Made by a program: the position numbers and the translations under genes. 64,000 nucleotides of DNA from Clostridia bacterium (GTDB taxonomy: Bacteria > Bacillota > TC1 > UBA5767), in assembly GCA_016887505.1 (NCBI GenBank), contig CP069393.1:806001-870000 (forward strand), given 5' to 3'. The first letter of the stretch is position 1. Each line of letters begins with the position of its first letter. The notes beneath the pieces are model-generated. The model was not told the origin of the DNA. It was given only the letters and a program-made list of their open reading frames with translations, and did not search any database. Positions 3,251 to 13,877 of this stretch are shown here, piece by piece.

Positions 3251-3280
3251 CTAAATCTATCTTCAAGGAGGAACACTATA

Positions 3281-4495
3281 ATGGCCCAGAAAAAACTCAT
3301 CGACAAACAACTGATCCGCGAACTCATGAAAGAAGGCGAGCTTAAGGATGTCAAAGACATCCAGTCCCTACTAAAAGCACAATTCAAAGACATCATGCAA
3401 GAAATGCTGGAAGCTGAACTGGATCATGAACTCGGATATAGCAAGTATGACTATAAGAACAAGGATACTACAAACAGCCGTAACGGCATTCGTTCTAAAA
3501 AGGTTCGTTCCGATTATGGAGAAATGGAAATTGACATACCTAGAGACCGTAATGGGGATTTTGAACCTGTAATCATTAAGAAAAACCAACGTGATGTTTC
3601 AAGTATTGATGACCAGGTCATAAGCATGTATGCCAAAGGGATGACTGTCAGAGACATTCAGGATCATCTACATAACCTTTACGGAATTGATGTATCACCA
3701 ACCATGATTTCACAGATTACTGAGAAAATATTACCTGTAATAAAGGAATGGCAGCAACGCCCACTACAAGAGGTTTATGCCCACCTAATCATGGATGCCA
3801 TCCACTACAAAGTCCGTCAGGATGGAAAGATAGTCAACAAAGCAGTCTACATCATACTAGGTATTGATTTGGACGGTAAAAAGGACGTTGTAGGTATGTG
3901 GGTCGGAGAAAATGAGACCAGTAAATTTTGGCTTAAAGTGTTAACTGATTTGCAGCATCGTGGTGTTAAGGATGTGCTGATAGTGTCTATCGATGGACTG
4001 AATGGCTTTAAAGAAGCAATACAGGCTGTTTATCCAGACACCAGAATTCAGCGGTGCATCGTTCATATGATTCGCAATTCAACGAAATACCTGTCCTGGA
4101 AGGACCGTAAAGCATTCGTCAATGATCTTAAACCAATCTACAAAGCAATCAACGAAGATTCCGCTTTGAACGCTCTACAAGATTTAGAAGACAAGTGGGG
4201 CGAGAAGTATTATATCGCGGTAAAACCTTGGAAAGACAACTGGGATGAAGTAGCAACAATGTTCGAGTATCCGGCTGAAATCAGAAGGATGATATACACA
4301 ACAAACGCCATCGAAAGCTTTAACCGCCAGCTACGCAAAGTCACGAAATCCAAGAGTGTGTTTCCAACCGATGATGCCCTGTTGAAAATGCTGTATCTGG
4401 CAATGATTGATATAACCAAGAAATGGACTATGAGGACTCGGGACTGGGGTAAAATTATTAATCAGCTAGCAATTCACTTCGAGGGACGTATTTGA
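3281..4495 (+). CDS. IS256-family transposase
   Basis: This is a 404-residue mutator-type (PF00872) DDE transposase. Candidate catalytic residues are Asp172 in IMDAIHYK, Asp238 in VSIDGLNGF and Glu345 in NAIESFNRQLRK. The conserved RCIVHMIRN block (Cys259, His262) lies between the second Asp and the Glu. The length is normal for the family and there is no frameshift. The start at 3281 (MAQKK) is chosen because AAGGAGG lies at 3265-3271 with good spacing. The frame is open further upstream but has no second binding site. The gene lies inside perfect 8-bp duplications, so the element is probably active or recently active. Confidence 0.95.
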   Translation: MAQKKLIDKQLIRELMKEGELKDVKDIQSLLKAQFKDIMQEMLEAELDHELGYSKYDYKNKDTTNSRNGIRSKKVRSDYGEMEIDIPRDRNGDFEPVIIKKNQRDVSSIDDQVISMYAKGMTVRDIQDHLHNLYGIDVSPTMISQITEKILPVIKEWQQRPLQEVYAHLIMDAIHYKVRQDGKIVNKAVYIILGIDLDGKKDVVGMWVGENETSKFWLKVLTDLQHRGVKDVLIVSIDGLNGFKEAIQAVYPDTRIQRCIVHMIRNSTKYLSWKDRKAFVNDLKPIYKAINEDSALNALQDLEDKWGEKYYIAVKPWKDNWDEVATMFEYPAEIRRMIYTTNAIESFNRQLRKVTKSKSVFPTDDALLKMLYLAMIDITKKWTMRTRDWGKIINQLAIHFEGRI

Positions 4496-8616: not shown

Positions 8617-9081
8617 CTAATCCACAAAAGGAAGCAAATAGCCATAACCCTCTTCTTCCATATTTTCTTTGGGTATGAATCTCATTGCTGCACTGTTTAT
8701 ACAATAACGTAGACCACCCATTTCCTTGGGACCATCGGTAAACACATGTCCTAAATGTGAATCTGCCGTTTTACTCCGCACTTCTGTTCGATTCATACCA
8801 TGAGCCATATCCGTTTTCTCCTGGACCAAAGATTCCTCTATCGGCTTAGAAAAGCTAGGCCAACCGCATCCTGAATCAAACTTATCTTTCGAAAAGAACA
8901 AGGGCTCATCGCTTACCACATCCACATAGATGCCGACTTTGTTTTGACTCCAATAGTCATTCATAAACGGTGTTTCCGTGCCCGACATTTGTGTTACCCT
9001 GAATTGCTCTTGACTCAGTTTTTTACGAATTTCATCTTTGGAAGGTTTACTGTATTTCTTGGAGACAATTTTCTTAGTCAT
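8617..9081 (-). CDS. msrB: Peptide-methionine (R)-S-oxide reductase MsrB
   Basis: This is a 154-residue SelR-domain enzyme that reduces the R epimer of methionine sulfoxide in proteins. It shows [28 protein letters not shown] and [16 protein letters not shown], with catalytic Cys127 and a probable resolving Cys72. The pairs of zinc-binding CxxC motifs are absent, as in several Firmicutes MsrB proteins. The gene starts two bases after msrA, so the two are cotranscribed at the end of the OpuC-type transporter operon. It probably depends on thioredoxin (family knowledge). It is cytoplasmic, with no signal peptide. Confidence 0.96.
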
Positions 9082-9083
9082 GC

Positions 9084-9563
9084 CTATACCCCCGCCTTAC
9101 TTAAGTCAATATGGCAATATCCGCCTGGATGCTTTTTCAAATAGTCTTGATGTTCCTCCTCCGCAATCACATAATTACGAACTAACTTTACATCTACTAC
9201 AATTGGTTTTGTATACTTTTCAGACATTTCCTTCAAAAATTCTTCCACTGTAGGAATTTCCGACTCCTCTGTCACATAGATGCCAGTACGGTATTGTCTA
9301 CCTTTGTCATTACCTTGTTTGTTCACGCTAGTTGGATCAATAATCTTAAAATACTCCGTCAGCAAAGTCACAAGTGGCAACCTTAGTTCATCGTACTCCA
9401 CCTTCACCGTCTCCGCATGATCTGTACGATGTAATTCCATATAGCTGGTACTCTCCGTGATTCCATTGCTGTAGCCTACTTCAGTACGCAAGACACCTTC
9501 AATACGATCAAAATAGGCTTGTACTCCCCAAAAACAACCGCCTGCTAGATAGATGGTACTCAT
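9084..9563 (-). CDS. msrA: Peptide-methionine (S)-S-oxide reductase MsrA
   Basis: This 159-residue enzyme has the catalytic GCFWG motif close to its N-terminus and the family block GYSNGITES...[11 protein letters not shown], and reduces the S epimer of methionine sulfoxide. The usual GRTGHAE reads HRTDHAE here, and the loop cysteine often found there is absent. The start at 9563 (MSTIYLAGG) is preferred because GAGGAG lies 8 bases before it. The ATG at 9572 lies only 2 bases from that site. It closely follows the OpuCA-type ATPase gene and precedes msrB, making an osmoprotection plus oxidative repair operon. Confidence 0.95.
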
Positions 9564-9568
9564 TAACA

Positions 9569-10414
9569 TCACTCCTCACAACTATTTTCTACACGTAAGT
9601 TGTTATAGACCTCATTTAGTGTCATAGAGCCACATAAGATGTTTTCATATACCTGTTCCATCAAGGAACCGTCCAAAATAGAGCGGAACCCTTTAAGTCC
9701 AAAAAATTCTTTTACAAAAGGTGTCTTAGGATTAAATATTAACTCTCTGCCCGTACCCTGCTGTTCAATCTTCCCGTTGTTTAAAAGAATAATCCTTGTT
9801 CCCAGCTTTAAAGCCTCTGCAATATCATGCGTTACAAAGATAACTGTTTTCCCCAGCTTTGCATGCAGTGACTTCAGTTCGTCCTGCAAGGTACCCCTCG
9901 CAATCTCATCCACTGCACCAAATGGCTCATCCATCAATATGATATCTGGATCCGCCGCAAGTGCTCTTGCTACACCAATCCTTTGGCGTTGCCCTCCACT
10001 CAGTTCCCGTGGATACCGTGTTAAAAAGCTTCTTTCAAAGCCGAGTAAGTCAATCAGCTCTTCTGCTCTTTTCCTTCTTGTTCCCTTTGCAACCTTCATA
10101 AGTGACAACACGTAAGTAATGTTGTTTTCTATGGTCAAATGTGGCAAAAGTCCAATATGTTGAATCACATACCCGATACTTCTTCTTAGTTCAATCGTAT
10201 CCCACTCTTGAATATTCCGACCATTTACAATAATTTGACCGGACTCAAAAGTAAGAAGCTTATTAATCATTTTAAGCAGCGTCGTCTTACCACAGCCCGA
10301 GGCCCCTAAAAGTACCACAAACTCACCCTTTTCTACATCCAAAGATAAATGATCAATGACAAGTTGATCCTTCTGATATGATTTCACTATGTCTTGAATC
10401 TGGATAACTTGCAT
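9569..10414 (-). CDS. Glycine betaine/carnitine/choline-type ABC transporter ATPase (OpuCA-like)
   Basis: This is a 281-residue ATPase with Walker A GASGCGKTT, Q-loop VIQHIGLLPH, signature LSGGQRQRIG, Walker B IILMDEP and HD switch VTHD. The QHIGLLPHLTIENNI segment is typical of the osmoprotectant (OpuC/ProV) subclass. The tandem CBS domains that many OpuCA proteins carry at the C-terminus are absent. Only a short tail of about 40 residues follows the ATPase, so ionic-strength sensing through CBS domains is not expected. It lies one base after the binding-protein gene in the operon. Confidence 0.9.
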   Translation of the reverse strand: MQVIQIQDIVKSYQKDQLVIDHLSLDVEKGEFVVLLGASGCGKTTLLKMINKLLTFESGQIIVNGRNIQEWDTIELRRSIGYVIQHIGLLPHLTIENNITYVLSLMKVAKGTRRKRAEELIDLLGFERSFLTRYPRELSGGQRQRIGVARALAADPDIILMDEPFGAVDEIARGTLQDELKSLHAKLGKTVIFVTHDIAEALKLGTRIILLNNGKIEQQGTGRELIFNPKTPFVKEFFGLKGFRSILDGSLMEQVYENILCGSMTLNEVYNNLRVENSCEE

Positions 10415-10415
10415 A

Positions 10416-11321
10416 TTACAGCAATCCCTTTTGAGTCAAGAAATCCATTGCCACCTGTTTGGGATCCATATCTTCTATTTCTACCAAATAGTTCATCTCT
10501 GTCATTTCTTCATTGCTAATAAGGCCGTCCATCATTGCCAAAATACTAGTTAGCTCAGGATACATATCTAGCGTTTCTTGACGAACCAGCGTTGCTGCAA
10601 AATAGGAAGGGAAGAAATTCATATCATCCTCTAGGACAACCAAACCAAATTCTTTCAAACGTCCATCTGTCGAAAAAATGTTAATTGCATCAACTTGATC
10701 AGAGCCAATTGCTTGATATTTAAGACCTATATCCAATTCCACCTTATCATCAAAATCAAATCCATACGCTGCCTCTAATCCTGGATAACCATCCTCACGC
10801 TCATAAAAATCATATTCCGCACCCAACGCAAGTTGGTCACTTACTTTTGCAAGATCACTATACGTTTTAATATTCATAGCTTCTGCTACTTCTTTCTTCA
10901 TAGCAATGCCATACGTATCGTTAAAGCCATAGAGCTCTGACCAAACAATATCAAAATCACTCTTGTATTGTTCCTTCACAGCTTCATATAAGGCTTGTGG
11001 ATCATTAATCAAATCCTGTTTTAAAACAAACAGCCAACCTGTTCCAGTGTATTCTGGATAGATATCTATTTCTCCATTAATCATACCTGGATGGATGTTT
11101 GATGTACCACCACCGATGCCCAACTTTTGTTCAACCACAATATCTGAATTAGACTCAATCAGCTGGGTCAGCATTTCCACCAAGATATACTGTTCCGTCA
11201 TTGGCTTTGAAGCAATGACTACCGTCTTTTCATCCTTTGCACATCCAATTATACTTAGTGATATTACGAGCACAAGCAACAATACAAATATTTTTTTCGT
11301 TAAACCTACTCTACCGTTCAT
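10416..11321 (-). CDS. Osmoprotectant ABC transporter substrate-binding lipoprotein (OpuCC-like)
   Basis: This is a 301-residue lipoprotein. The signal helix ends in the lipobox SIIGC (Cys27) and an OpuAC-type binding domain follows. Recognised blocks are VIASKPMTEQYILVEML, GGGTSNIHPGMINGEIDIYPEYTGTG, and VDAINIFSTDGRLKEFGLVVLEDD. The IDIYPEYTGT stretch is characteristic of the OpuCC/OsmF quaternary-ammonium-binding group. GGGAGG supports the ATG at 11321. It would bind betaine, choline or a related solute at the membrane surface for the adjacent permease and ATPase. Confidence 0.92.
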   Translation of the reverse strand: MNGRVGLTKKIFVLLLVLVISLSIIGCAKDEKTVVIASKPMTEQYILVEMLTQLIESNSDIVVEQKLGIGGGTSNIHPGMINGEIDIYPEYTGTGWLFVLKQDLINDPQALYEAVKEQYKSDFDIVWSELYGFNDTYGIAMKKEVAEAMNIKTYSDLAKVSDQLALGAEYDFYEREDGYPGLEAAYGFDFDDKVELDIGLKYQAIGSDQVDAINIFSTDGRLKEFGLVVLEDDMNFFPSYFAATLVRQETLDMYPELTSILAMMDGLISNEEMTEMNYLVEIEDMDPKQVAMDFLTQKGLL

Positions 11322-11325
11322 ACTT

Positions 11326-11988
11326 TTACCTCCCTGTTGATTCTTTTCCTAAAACCCTACTATATAGTCTTTTTTCCAATAGACCCAGCAATGCATCCGC
11401 TATGATTGCCAGTAGGGCAACCAATAAACTACCCGCAATCGTCATCTCGGGGAAATAGGTCGTTATGCCCCGCCACAGTGCATTTCCTAAACCGCCCGCA
11501 CCTATAAAACTTGCAACTCCTGCCAAAGCAATGGTCATCACGACCATAGTCCGTATGCCTGTTATAATCACCGGCATTGCTAGTGGCAATTGAACCCGTA
11601 GCAACAATTGACTTGGCGTGCTTCCCATGCCAATCGCTGATTCAATAATTTGGTCATCTACCTCCATAATCCCCACATATGTATTTTTAACGATTGGAAG
11701 CATCCCGTAAATCACCAAGGCGATAATTGCACTTTTATTACCGATGCCAGTGATGGCTACTAAGAATCCAAACAGAGCAATCGATGGAATCGTATAAAGA
11801 AAATTGTTGATGCCCATCACAATGGAAGCTAGATTCCGATTCTTTGTTATTAGAACACCTACCGTTAAACCAATGATTAAAATAAAAAATACAGATACCC
11901 CTGTTAAAAAGATATGATCCAATGTCAATTCTAGAAAATAGGGCCACCGTTCTGTGTAAACACGTATTACTCCTTTTATGACTTCCAT
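11326..11988 (-). CDS. Osmoprotectant ABC transporter permease (OpuCB-like)
   Basis: This is a 220-residue BPD-type permease with about five to six membrane helices. It carries the EAA-loop-like segment ESAIGMGSTPSQLLLRVQLPLAMP, which contacts the ATPase, and the family motif GAGGLGNALWRGI. The start at 11988 is chosen because AGGAGG lies 5 bases upstream. An extended frame to 12036 lacks a site. Only one permease gene is present, whereas many OpuC systems have two (OpuCB and OpuCD), so it would act as a homodimer. It is the first gene of the operon opuCB-opuCC-opuCA-msrA-msrB. Confidence 0.92.
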   Translation of the reverse strand: MEVIKGVIRVYTERWPYFLELTLDHIFLTGVSVFFILIIGLTVGVLITKNRNLASIVMGINNFLYTIPSIALFGFLVAITGIGNKSAIIALVIYGMLPIVKNTYVGIMEVDDQIIESAIGMGSTPSQLLLRVQLPLAMPVIITGIRTMVVMTIALAGVASFIGAGGLGNALWRGITTYFPEMTIAGSLLVALLAIIADALLGLLEKRLYSRVLGKESTGR

Positions 11989-12131
11989 TGCACCTCCTGC
12001 TATTGTATAAACTATTCCTATACCTACATATTCCACTCTTTACCCCTGCTTCCTCTTAAGCATACCGAATAAAATGACATATTGCATATTTTTTAGTACC
12101 CCTCATTAAATTTCAAGCTCGAGCTGCTTAG

Positions 12132-12140
12132 TGCTATGAT
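12132..12140 (+). promoter_or_regulatory. Possible extended -10 promoter of the molybdopterin lipoprotein gene
   Basis: TGCTATGAT matches an extended -10 element and lies about 40 bases before the start codon at 12179. The -35 region is weak. Confidence 0.4.
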
Positions 12141-12178
12141 TAATAAGTAAGAAGTAGCACCAAAACAAGGAGGCTAAA

Positions 12179-12856
12179 ATGAAACAGTTTAAACTAATAA
12201 GCATATTGCTCATTGTAATGCTCGCTTTCAGTGCCTGCTCATCAGGTGAAGACCCTGCTGAACAACCCCCGATAGACACCCCAGAAGGGCCCACAATCAA
12301 CGAACTTGCAGAAGTGGAAGTACGAGAATATGAAGGAGAAGATCTTTCGTCTATCCTCGATTTTAGAGAAAACTCTATCAAGGGACCACAGGATGTCGAT
12401 ATTGACGCATATAGACTTACTGTTGATGGCTTGGTAGATAACCCGATGGAATACACTTATGATGAAGCGCTCGGATTTGACCGATATTCCAAAGTCGTAA
12501 ACATGTATTGTGTAGAAGGTTGGAGCGTAAATCTTCTTTGGGAAGGGATAAAAGTTGCTGATCTTTTGGAACAAGCTGGTATTGATCCATCCGCCAAAAC
12601 TGTCATCTTTCATGCTGTAGATGAGTACACAACTTCTGTACCCTTGGATTTCATTTTAGACAATGATATCTTATTAGCCTATAAAATGAATGACGTAGTC
12701 CTGCCTAAAGAAAGAGGATTTCCTTTCCAATTGGTAGCACAAGACAAGCTTGGTTACAAATGGATTAAATGGGTAACAAGAATAGAGCTTTCCGATGATG
12801 AGAACTATAAGGGCTTCTGGGAAAGCAGAGGTTACAACAATGAAGCTGATATCTAG
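12179..12856 (+). CDS. Exported molybdopterin-dependent oxidoreductase lipoprotein (sulfite oxidase/MsrP-like fold)
   Basis: This is a 225-residue lipoprotein with lipobox AFSAC (Cys20), then an acidic linker and an oxidoreductase molybdopterin-binding domain (PF00174). YRLTVDGLVDNP opens the domain. MYCVEGWS holds the candidate Mo ligand Cys111, matching the CVEAWS motif of E. coli MsrP (YedY). GFPFQLVAQDKLGYKWIKWV closes the cofactor pocket. It would be anchored outside the cytoplasmic membrane. The substrate is unknown. A sulfoxide or similar oxide is plausible, given that msrA and msrB are encoded in the divergent operon (inference). AAGGAGG precedes the ATG. The next gene overlaps its 3' end by 17 bases. 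Confidence 0.88.
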   Translation: MKQFKLISILLIVMLAFSACSSGEDPAEQPPIDTPEGPTINELAEVEVREYEGEDLSSILDFRENSIKGPQDVDIDAYRLTVDGLVDNPMEYTYDEALGFDRYSKVVNMYCVEGWSVNLLWEGIKVADLLEQAGIDPSAKTVIFHAVDEYTTSVPLDFILDNDILLAYKMNDVVLPKERGFPFQLVAQDKLGYKWIKWVTRIELSDDENYKGFWESRGYNNEADI

Positions 12857-13142
12857 GCTCAATAAAATTGCCGCTTGGGCCTTGATTCCCTTATTTATGC
12901 TATTTATTATTTCTGGTTTGGATTCGGTTAGCAGACAGTTTATTCCCATCTTATCCAGTCTATGGCATATTAAATACTTGTTTATACCCACTATGATTGC
13001 TTTTTTAATCCACTCTAGCTATGTAATTTACACTCGGGTTGTAAAAAAAGCAAAACACAAAATGCTTGCAAAACTAATACTGCCATTTTACTTGTTGCTA
13101 AACCTGTTAATTATCGTTTGGTTTGTAATGGCCATATATTAA
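12840..13142 (+). CDS. Small three-helix membrane protein, probable partner of the molybdopterin lipoprotein
   Basis: This is a 100-residue protein with three hydrophobic segments (about residues 10-27, 45-64 and 78-99). Histidines at 43 and 58 lie in or near the second helix and could hold a heme b or contact quinol (inference). It overlaps the Mo-lipoprotein gene by 17 bases, with AGAGG inside that gene, which implies translational coupling. In proteobacteria the equivalent partner MsrQ is a six-helix heme protein of about 200 residues. This one is half that size and shows no obvious sequence match, so the role is suggested by position only. Confidence 0.65.
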   Translation: MKLISRLNKIAAWALIPLFMLFIISGLDSVSRQFIPILSSLWHIKYLFIPTMIAFLIHSSYVIYTRVVKKAKHKMLAKLILPFYLLLNLLIIVWFVMAIY

Positions 13143-13148
13143 ATAAAC

Positions 13149-13190
13149 CGGAGTGCCAGAAGATTCTATACTCTTCCGTCACTCCGATTT
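13149..13190. terminator. Bidirectional terminator between convergent units
   Basis: CGGAGTG (13149-13155) pairs with CACTCCG (13180-13186), with further pairing inside. The plus strand continues attttta and the minus strand gtttattt, so it can serve both the Mo-lipoprotein operon and the rhodanese operon. Confidence 0.65.
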
Positions 13191-13202
13191 TTAGTTATTA
13201 TG

Positions 13203-13329: not shown

Positions 13330-13686
13330 TTACCAGTTTGCCCTACGACCAAAATCATAGACATCAGTATATCCCAAAGAACTTAGTATCTTAACTGCCT
13401 TCATGCTTCTAGAACCGCTCTCACAATAGACTATTACCGGCTGATCCTTCCTACTAATCTTTTTCGGTGCAACCGATTTAATGGTATGGAGTGACATTAA
13501 TTTACTTCCCTTAATGTGACCAGCTTGATATTCTTTTGCAGTACGTACATCTAGCAATACTGCTTTTTCTTCTCTAATCTTTTTCTTCGCTTCTTCCTTG
13601 CCAATCTTCTTTCTACCACGATAATATATCTTTTTATACAAACTAAATACAACCAAAGCTGCTAACGCCGGTATCAGTATATCCAT
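13330..13686 (-). CDS. Membrane-anchored rhodanese-like sulfurtransferase
   Basis: This is a 118-residue protein. One N-terminal membrane helix (about residues 3-15) and a basic stretch are followed by a single rhodanese domain with LLDVRTAKEYQAGHIKGS and the active-site loop VIVYCESGSRS, whose Cys would carry a persulfide. The start at 13686 has AGGAG 6 bases upstream. A longer frame to 13737 would overlap the ferredoxin gene. It follows the ferredoxin gene by 8 bases under one promoter with a CsoR/CstR-like operator, so a role in reactive sulfur handling is likely (inference). Confidence 0.87.
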   Translation of the reverse strand: MDILIPALAALVVFSLYKKIYYRGRKKIGKEEAKKKIREEKAVLLDVRTAKEYQAGHIKGSKLMSLHTIKSVAPKKISRKDQPVIVYCESGSRSMKAVKILSSLGYTDVYDFGRRANW

Positions 13687-13694
13687 GTTTACTC

Positions 13695-13877
13695 CTATAC
13701 ACTCTGAAATGCGCCATAAGGACACATCATCAAGCATTTACCACATTGTACACACTTCGCCTTATCAATAGTTGGTGCTTCAAATCCCTGCTGCTCAATT
13801 GCTCCAGTTGGACAATACGCGATAGAGGGGCAACGGTGGTTTTTAGGACAGCGTTGTCCTTCAACAATTATGCTCAT
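13695..13877 (-). CDS. Small ferredoxin-like iron-sulfur protein with an incomplete first cluster motif
   Basis: This is a 60-residue protein with seven cysteines. The C-terminal half holds a full 4Fe-4S pattern (Cys42, 45, 48, then Cys52-Pro). The N-terminal half has only three cysteines in a C-x5-C-x5-CP arrangement (Cys10, 16, 22), so the first cluster site is atypical. It may bind a 3Fe-4S cluster, use a non-cysteine ligand, or be reshaped for sulfur transfer. AAGGAG lies upstream of the ATG. It is cotranscribed with the membrane rhodanese gene. Confidence 0.85.
   Translation of the reverse strand: MSIIVEGQRCPKNHRCPSIAYCPTGAIEQQGFEAPTIDKAKCVQCGKCLMMCPYGAFQSV

Follow-up and report, generated by a model that had tools for sequence, protein, structure and literature searches.

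A SUOX-fold lipoprotein with a Sec-type leader, recurrently encoded beside a very small, putatively haem-binding membrane protein

Introduction

What does an exported lipoprotein with a sulfite-oxidase (SUOX) fold do beside an overlapping gene for a 100-residue membrane protein? The question arises from a stretch of 64,000 nucleotides (hereafter the window) of a Clostridia bacterium, positions 806,001 to 870,000 of contig CP069393.1 (assembly GCA_016887505.1), part of a closed genome of 2.56 Mb. A first-pass annotation, made from the letters of the window and its open reading frames (ORFs), had seen here a possible methionine-sulfoxide/osmostress island: genes for osmoprotectant uptake and for MsrA and MsrB, divergent from an exported molybdenum enzyme with a mini membrane partner. 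On the accepted view, exported enzymes with a molybdenum cofactor (Moco) take it up in the cytoplasm and then cross the membrane folded, through the Tat pathway (PMC4228395, PMC5449189). We put at about one half the probability that the operon at 12179-13142 encodes a two-part extracytoplasmic redox module, in which a lipid-anchored SUOX-fold pterin or Moco protein, here called MoLP, works with half of a cytochrome b. The domain, the conservation of its cysteine, the Sec-type leader, the recurrent linkage of the two genes, the invariant His, Pro and His of the small protein and the purifying selection acting on it are supported directly. In the proposed mechanism MoLP would be exported by Sec, anchored to lipid and equipped with a pterin-based cofactor, and a minimal cytochrome of the b type would carry electrons between it and the quinone pool; the haem, a dimeric state, the quinone and the direction of flow are what we infer.

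Results

MoLP has a SUOX fold and an invariant cysteine

The operon has the following parts.

12179-12856, plus strand: MoLP, a SUOX-fold (PF00174) lipoprotein of 225 aa with a Sec-type lipobox leader, no twin Arg, and Cys111 in the motif CVEGWS
12840-13142, plus strand: putative half-size b-type-cytochrome-like protein of 100 aa with three helices and H43-x6-P50-x7-H58
13149-13193, plus strand: terminator-like hairpin (stem 13149-13186) and T-run, closing the two-gene operon

The start of the small gene overlaps the end of MoLP by 17 bp. The stem gave -18.7 kcal/mol (z -4.4) in a folding test; a pattern scan for terminators listed none at 13149-13193.

MoLP matched PF00174 (Oxidored_molyb) with 132.3 bits against a cut-off of 24 (1.7e-38), and its leader contains a lipobox-like FSAC. 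We compared it with 32 further loci from Bacillota, Chloroflexota, Actinomycetota and Bathyarchaeota, giving 33 with the window; most had 4-6 kb of flank on each side (some contigs were shorter), and two of the proteins (L034 and L080) are identical. The nearest named relative is that of 'Peptococcaceae bacterium UBA5767'. Six residues (C111, N65, G114, W115, D148 and N171) are identical in 33/33 MoLPs, and K194/W198 are kept in 97%. One further MoLP-like ORF (L005, 3711-4811) was set aside: by Pfam it is a solute-binding protein, and it was probably matched via its leader.

Against solved structures, the family profile found SorA (1.3e-21) and the YedY/MsrP structure 1xdq (9.3e-16). In the alignment to YedY/MsrP the family's CVEGW lies over CVEAW, and LPPERGFPFQLVAESKLGYKWIKW over the matching 24-letter stretch, so that Cys111 is aligned with the Cys of CVEAWS, the molybdenum-ligand region. 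The earlier description of a lipid-anchored protein carrying the CVExWS motif of MsrP was thus borne out. In a Foldseek search with the AlphaFold model (mean pLDDT 73, some loops low), SorA and YedY were nearest (probability 1.00) and PruR structures came next (target TM 0.62-0.68; 7kom 0.68). The hhalign probability against MsrP was 98.7%. By the NCBI threshold MoLP is not MsrP, since it scored 64.4 bits on the equivalog model NF003767 against a cut-off of 207, and the SorA and SoxC models scored higher. These sulfite dehydrogenases match the SUOX core best, both in sequence and in fold; unlike them, MoLP ends with that core, has no C-terminal dimerisation domain and adjoins no c-type cytochrome gene. 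The cofactor would most likely be a Mo-pterin held by Cys111; small S- or N-oxides and sulfur oxyanions are candidate substrates.

A small membrane protein with two invariant histidines recurs beside MoLP

The pattern of change in the small ORF argues for a real protein gene under purifying selection: dN/dS is about 0.07-0.11, taking only pairs with unsaturated dS, and between the window and L005, a locus of the same genus, 24, 16 and 66 changes fall at codon positions 1, 2 and 3. The AlphaFold model (mean pLDDT 81) has three helices, at 2-31, 36-68 and 74-99, and both H43 and H58 lie within the second.

A small partner adjoins MoLP in 12 of the 33 loci, in Bacillota and Chloroflexota. In L005 and L030-L032 it stands directly downstream, in the window's order, as it does in L006, where it is partly visible at the contig end. 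Four Chloroflexota loci (L009, L010, L011 and L014) have it downstream with 80-87 aa, and in L073 and L077 it lies directly upstream with 119-121 aa. That the two genes are paired in either order, and in two phyla, speaks for a functional partnership. A single origin of the linkage was rejected, as the tree needs 8 changes, of which at least 5 are forced by well-supported branches; the scattered presence points to repeated gain and loss, or relocation.

In an alignment of 11 partner sequences M1, L15, G26, H43, P50 and H58 do not vary, and H43, P50 and H58 are the sole invariant His and Pro. Bacillota have the motif H-x6-P-x7-H and Chloroflexota H-x5-P-x7-H, a His spacing of 15 versus 14. In cytochromes b and FdnI, the histidines of a di-haem helix are likewise 14-15 residues apart. 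The Chloroflexota partners matched DUF4405 (PF14358) over its full length (2e-5; 25.5 bits against a cut-off of 26.7) and one half of PF01292, cytochrome b561 (1.1e-5; 25.7 bits against 30.1), with a range of 1e-5 to 1e-3, narrowly below the curated cut-offs.

The small protein may be one half of a DUF4405/cytochrome-b561-like bundle whose second helix bears both His. Because one chain offers one His helix, two haems would need a dimer; a homodimer, with four such histidines, could bind two bis-His haems, one near each membrane face, and its paired His helices would resemble those of larger cytochromes b. With the positive N-terminus and the 62-76 loop on the inner side, H43 would be close to the outer face, beside the lipoprotein, and H58 deeper.

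A different gene takes this place in all three Lactobacillales loci, where a DUF3159 multi-helix protein is encoded directly upstream of MoLP (L008, 5082-5783; L066, 6816-7571; L067, 6587-7258). Just downstream of MoLP in L066 and L067 are folate genes like pabA-pabB-pabC, named by sequence reading without a profile.

The msr and osmoprotectant genes are local neighbours

The features on the other side of MoLP, and the region between, are as follows; all the genes are local neighbours, and the permease stands outside the conserved module.

12037-12178, no strand: divergent intergenic region between the OpuC-msr operon and MoLP
11326-12036, minus strand: OpuC/ProW-type permease (BPD_transp_1, 5e-24)
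10416-11321, minus strand: OpuAC/OsmF-type glycine-betaine-family binding lipoprotein (OpuAC, 2e-64)
9569-10414, minus strand: ProV-type ATPase (ProV-like profile match)
9084-9572, minus strand: msrA (PMSR, 1.4e-53)
8617-9081, minus strand: msrB (SelR, 1.7e-48), just beyond the range 9084-13142 first assigned to the island

Every gene named in the first-pass annotation is real, and its layout was confirmed: an OpuC-msrA-msrB operon divergent from the lipoprotein and an overlapping gene for a 100-aa three-helix protein. No promoter or repeat above chance was found in the divergent region 12037-12178.

The island itself did not survive the neighbourhood survey, a check whose outcome the first-pass annotation had itself named as refuting. 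Genes for MsrA, MsrB, the OpuC binding protein and the permease were absent from all 32 other MoLP loci, same-genus L005 included, so this linkage is confined to the present genome, where OpuC-msrAB is a local or chance neighbour. The MoLP neighbours in the same-genus genome (L005/L029) differ from the window's, and a LeuC-like gene (sequence reading) takes the divergent position in the related family f2. These counts bear on the idea of a Gram-positive MsrPQ analogue, repairing methionine sulfoxide outside the cytoplasm under joint control with msrA, msrB and osmoprotectant uptake. That idea draws on the alignment of CVExWS with the Cys region of MsrP and on the divergent msrA-msrB genes of the window, but besides the empty survey it has to contend with the low score on the MsrP model, the missing Tat leader and a small protein that is not detectably MsrQ-like (hhalign of its family against E. 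coli MsrQ, probability 0.2%). We regard it as unlikely. The proposed mini membrane partner held in part: it recurs with H43 and H58 invariant, but cannot be recognised as a half-size MsrQ. A comparison with E. coli YodB by hhalign was also negative, and with a single target sequence such a comparison counts for little here; the cytochrome link thus rests on the Chloroflexota Pfam matches.

Beside the module, at 13330-13877 of the window, lie convergent genes for a rhodanese and a small ferredoxin; no homologue of either was found beside the other Bacillota MoLP loci.

Cofactor supply and export weigh on the redox-module reading

Several results count against a two-part redox module. On the side of the small protein, the window's copy had no Pfam match, the other Bacillota copies likewise had none to DUF4405 or PF01292, and a Foldseek search of the model against the PDB gave no significant match, the best plausible ones being SdhD-type haem anchors (E ~1.7). 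In addition, 21 of the 33 loci show no partner beside MoLP, so that it is not obligatory or may sit elsewhere. Such absences would suit a small protein without haem that only anchors MoLP in the membrane or helps to assemble it, electrons coming from elsewhere. An anchor, however, would not need H43, P50 and H58, which are invariant in two phyla, relatives of the small protein match haem-cytochrome families, and MoLP is already lipid-anchored; we consider this role quite improbable.

The remaining objections come from the genomes that carry MoLP. Nearly all 33 leaders are Sec-like, many with a lipobox; only 2 of the 33, and not the window's, have the Tat-type RRx(hydrophobic)2. Of 30 carrier genomes, profile searches did not find TatC in 17, the near-complete G001, G004, G006 and G007 being examples, nor MoaC in 12, including G673 and G683, each with practically its entire genome on the MoLP contig. 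In Trichococcus palustris TatC, MoaC and MoeA are all missing, G044 also lacks MoeA, and the closed 2.93-Mb Lactobacillales genome G467 is without TatC and MoaC. The set is partly made of incomplete metagenome-assembled genomes, and absence by a single profile is no proof; control genomes gave the expected matches, and it is the near-complete, isolate and closed genomes that are informative. Absence of TatC, of MoaC/MoeA or of both in so many carriers is difficult to reconcile with an ordinary Moco enzyme. Hence the exported molybdenum enzyme of the first-pass annotation stands as to the SUOX fold and the ligand Cys, but its molybdenum is uncertain.

The same absences, with the 31 of 33 leaders that have no RRx(hydrophobic)2 and the PruR structures among the Foldseek matches, speak for the main rival account: a SUOX lipoprotein free of Moco, exported unfolded by Sec, that would bind (tetrahydro)pterin or scavenged molybdopterin outside as a PruR-like redox sensor or binder, with the membrane protein reading or setting its redox state. 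That the window's genome also has Cys-less PF00174 lipoproteins in a cluster with an ECF transporter and MobB points the same way. PruR, however, is defined by the missing molybdenum-ligand Cys, whereas the Cys is present in 33/33 MoLPs, Moco-less genomes included; ranked by E-value, the nearest structures are those of genuine Moco enzymes; and in the window's genome TatC is present alongside a moaA-moaC-mogA-moeA cluster (sequence reading in the case of moaA and mogA), which leaves room for a classical enzyme. Pterin binding of this kind is a possibility that we hold doubtful. A Cys kept in Moco-less genomes fits neither account well.

The Cys-less cluster lies outside the window (L083:313-7907; G000:C1:1442312-1449906). 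It is a minus-strand operon for three PF00174 proteins without a CVExW-type Cys motif, two of them with lipobox leaders, together with an FMN_bind lipoprotein, an ECF transporter (PF09819 S component, two ATPases, CbiQ), a phosphodiesterase and MobB. From its gene content it looks like an operon for uptake of (molybdo)pterin with SUOX-fold binding lipoproteins. Elsewhere, in L070 of Chloroflexota genome G885, a TatA/B-like gene (MEFLGIGPLELLLIIILALVVFSP..., by sequence reading) lies 90 bases downstream of MoLP (3276-4169). In a more divergent MoLP clade (L034, L080 and L081; genomes G044 and G339) the gene lies between one for a TPR protein and one for an unannotated secreted protein of 257-262 aa; no MoaC was detected in the genomes of this clade.

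Discussion

The module is a variant of the SUOX/MsrPQ kind. Like E. coli MsrP/MsrQ (YedY/YedZ), it joins an extracytoplasmic SUOX-fold catalytic protein with CVExWS to a paired membrane haem-type gene; MsrP, however, is a Tat substrate with a precursor of 334 aa and MoLP a 225-aa Sec-type lipoprotein, and the partners, at 80-121 aa, have no detectable similarity to MsrQ. Sco3746-type proteins of Firmicutes, Chloroflexi and Euryarchaeota also couple a b-type bundle to a Moco domain, but within one polypeptide of five transmembrane domains, with a conserved Tat motif before the fifth (PMC5449189); MoLP and its partner are separate genes, with 2-3 helices and no Tat motif. PruR, which binds pterin in the periplasm and has a SUOX fold, contains no Moco, and Trp replaces its molybdenum-ligand Cys (PMC13259868). 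MoLP shares its fold, N-terminal secretion signal and small size, but keeps Cys111, and its pairing is with a haem-like membrane protein instead of DcpA-type signalling proteins. As for DUF4405/cytochrome b561, the Chloroflexota partners align with the families, and the invariant pair of His lies in a predicted transmembrane helix, yet these partners score under the cut-offs, the Bacillota copies are unmatched and the protein would make only half a four-helix bundle.

The unit that recurs from phylum to phylum is an exported, molybdoenzyme-like lipoprotein, often with a very small membrane protein, predicted to be of haem type, beside it. In the open-licence literature (DUF4405 function, Sec-exported SUOX lipoproteins, minimal homodimeric cytochromes b) we found no description of such a pair. 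A broader and more speculative proposal, which we would not expect to hold as a whole, is that Cys-bearing SUOX lipoproteins are exported unfolded by Sec and load a pterin, Mo-pterin or other cofactor outside the cytoplasm in Tat-less, partly Moco-less organisms, some lineages being wired by a homodimeric, two-haem half-cytochrome b.

The family poses the question of what a SUOX fold binds in Tat-less or Moco-less genomes, and since it keeps its Cys and its Sec leader there, the rule of cytoplasmic loading and Tat export becomes directly testable. If true, loading after export would break that rule. The small partner would rank with the smallest cytochromes of the b type in nature and bear comparison with designed helical dimers that hold two haems.

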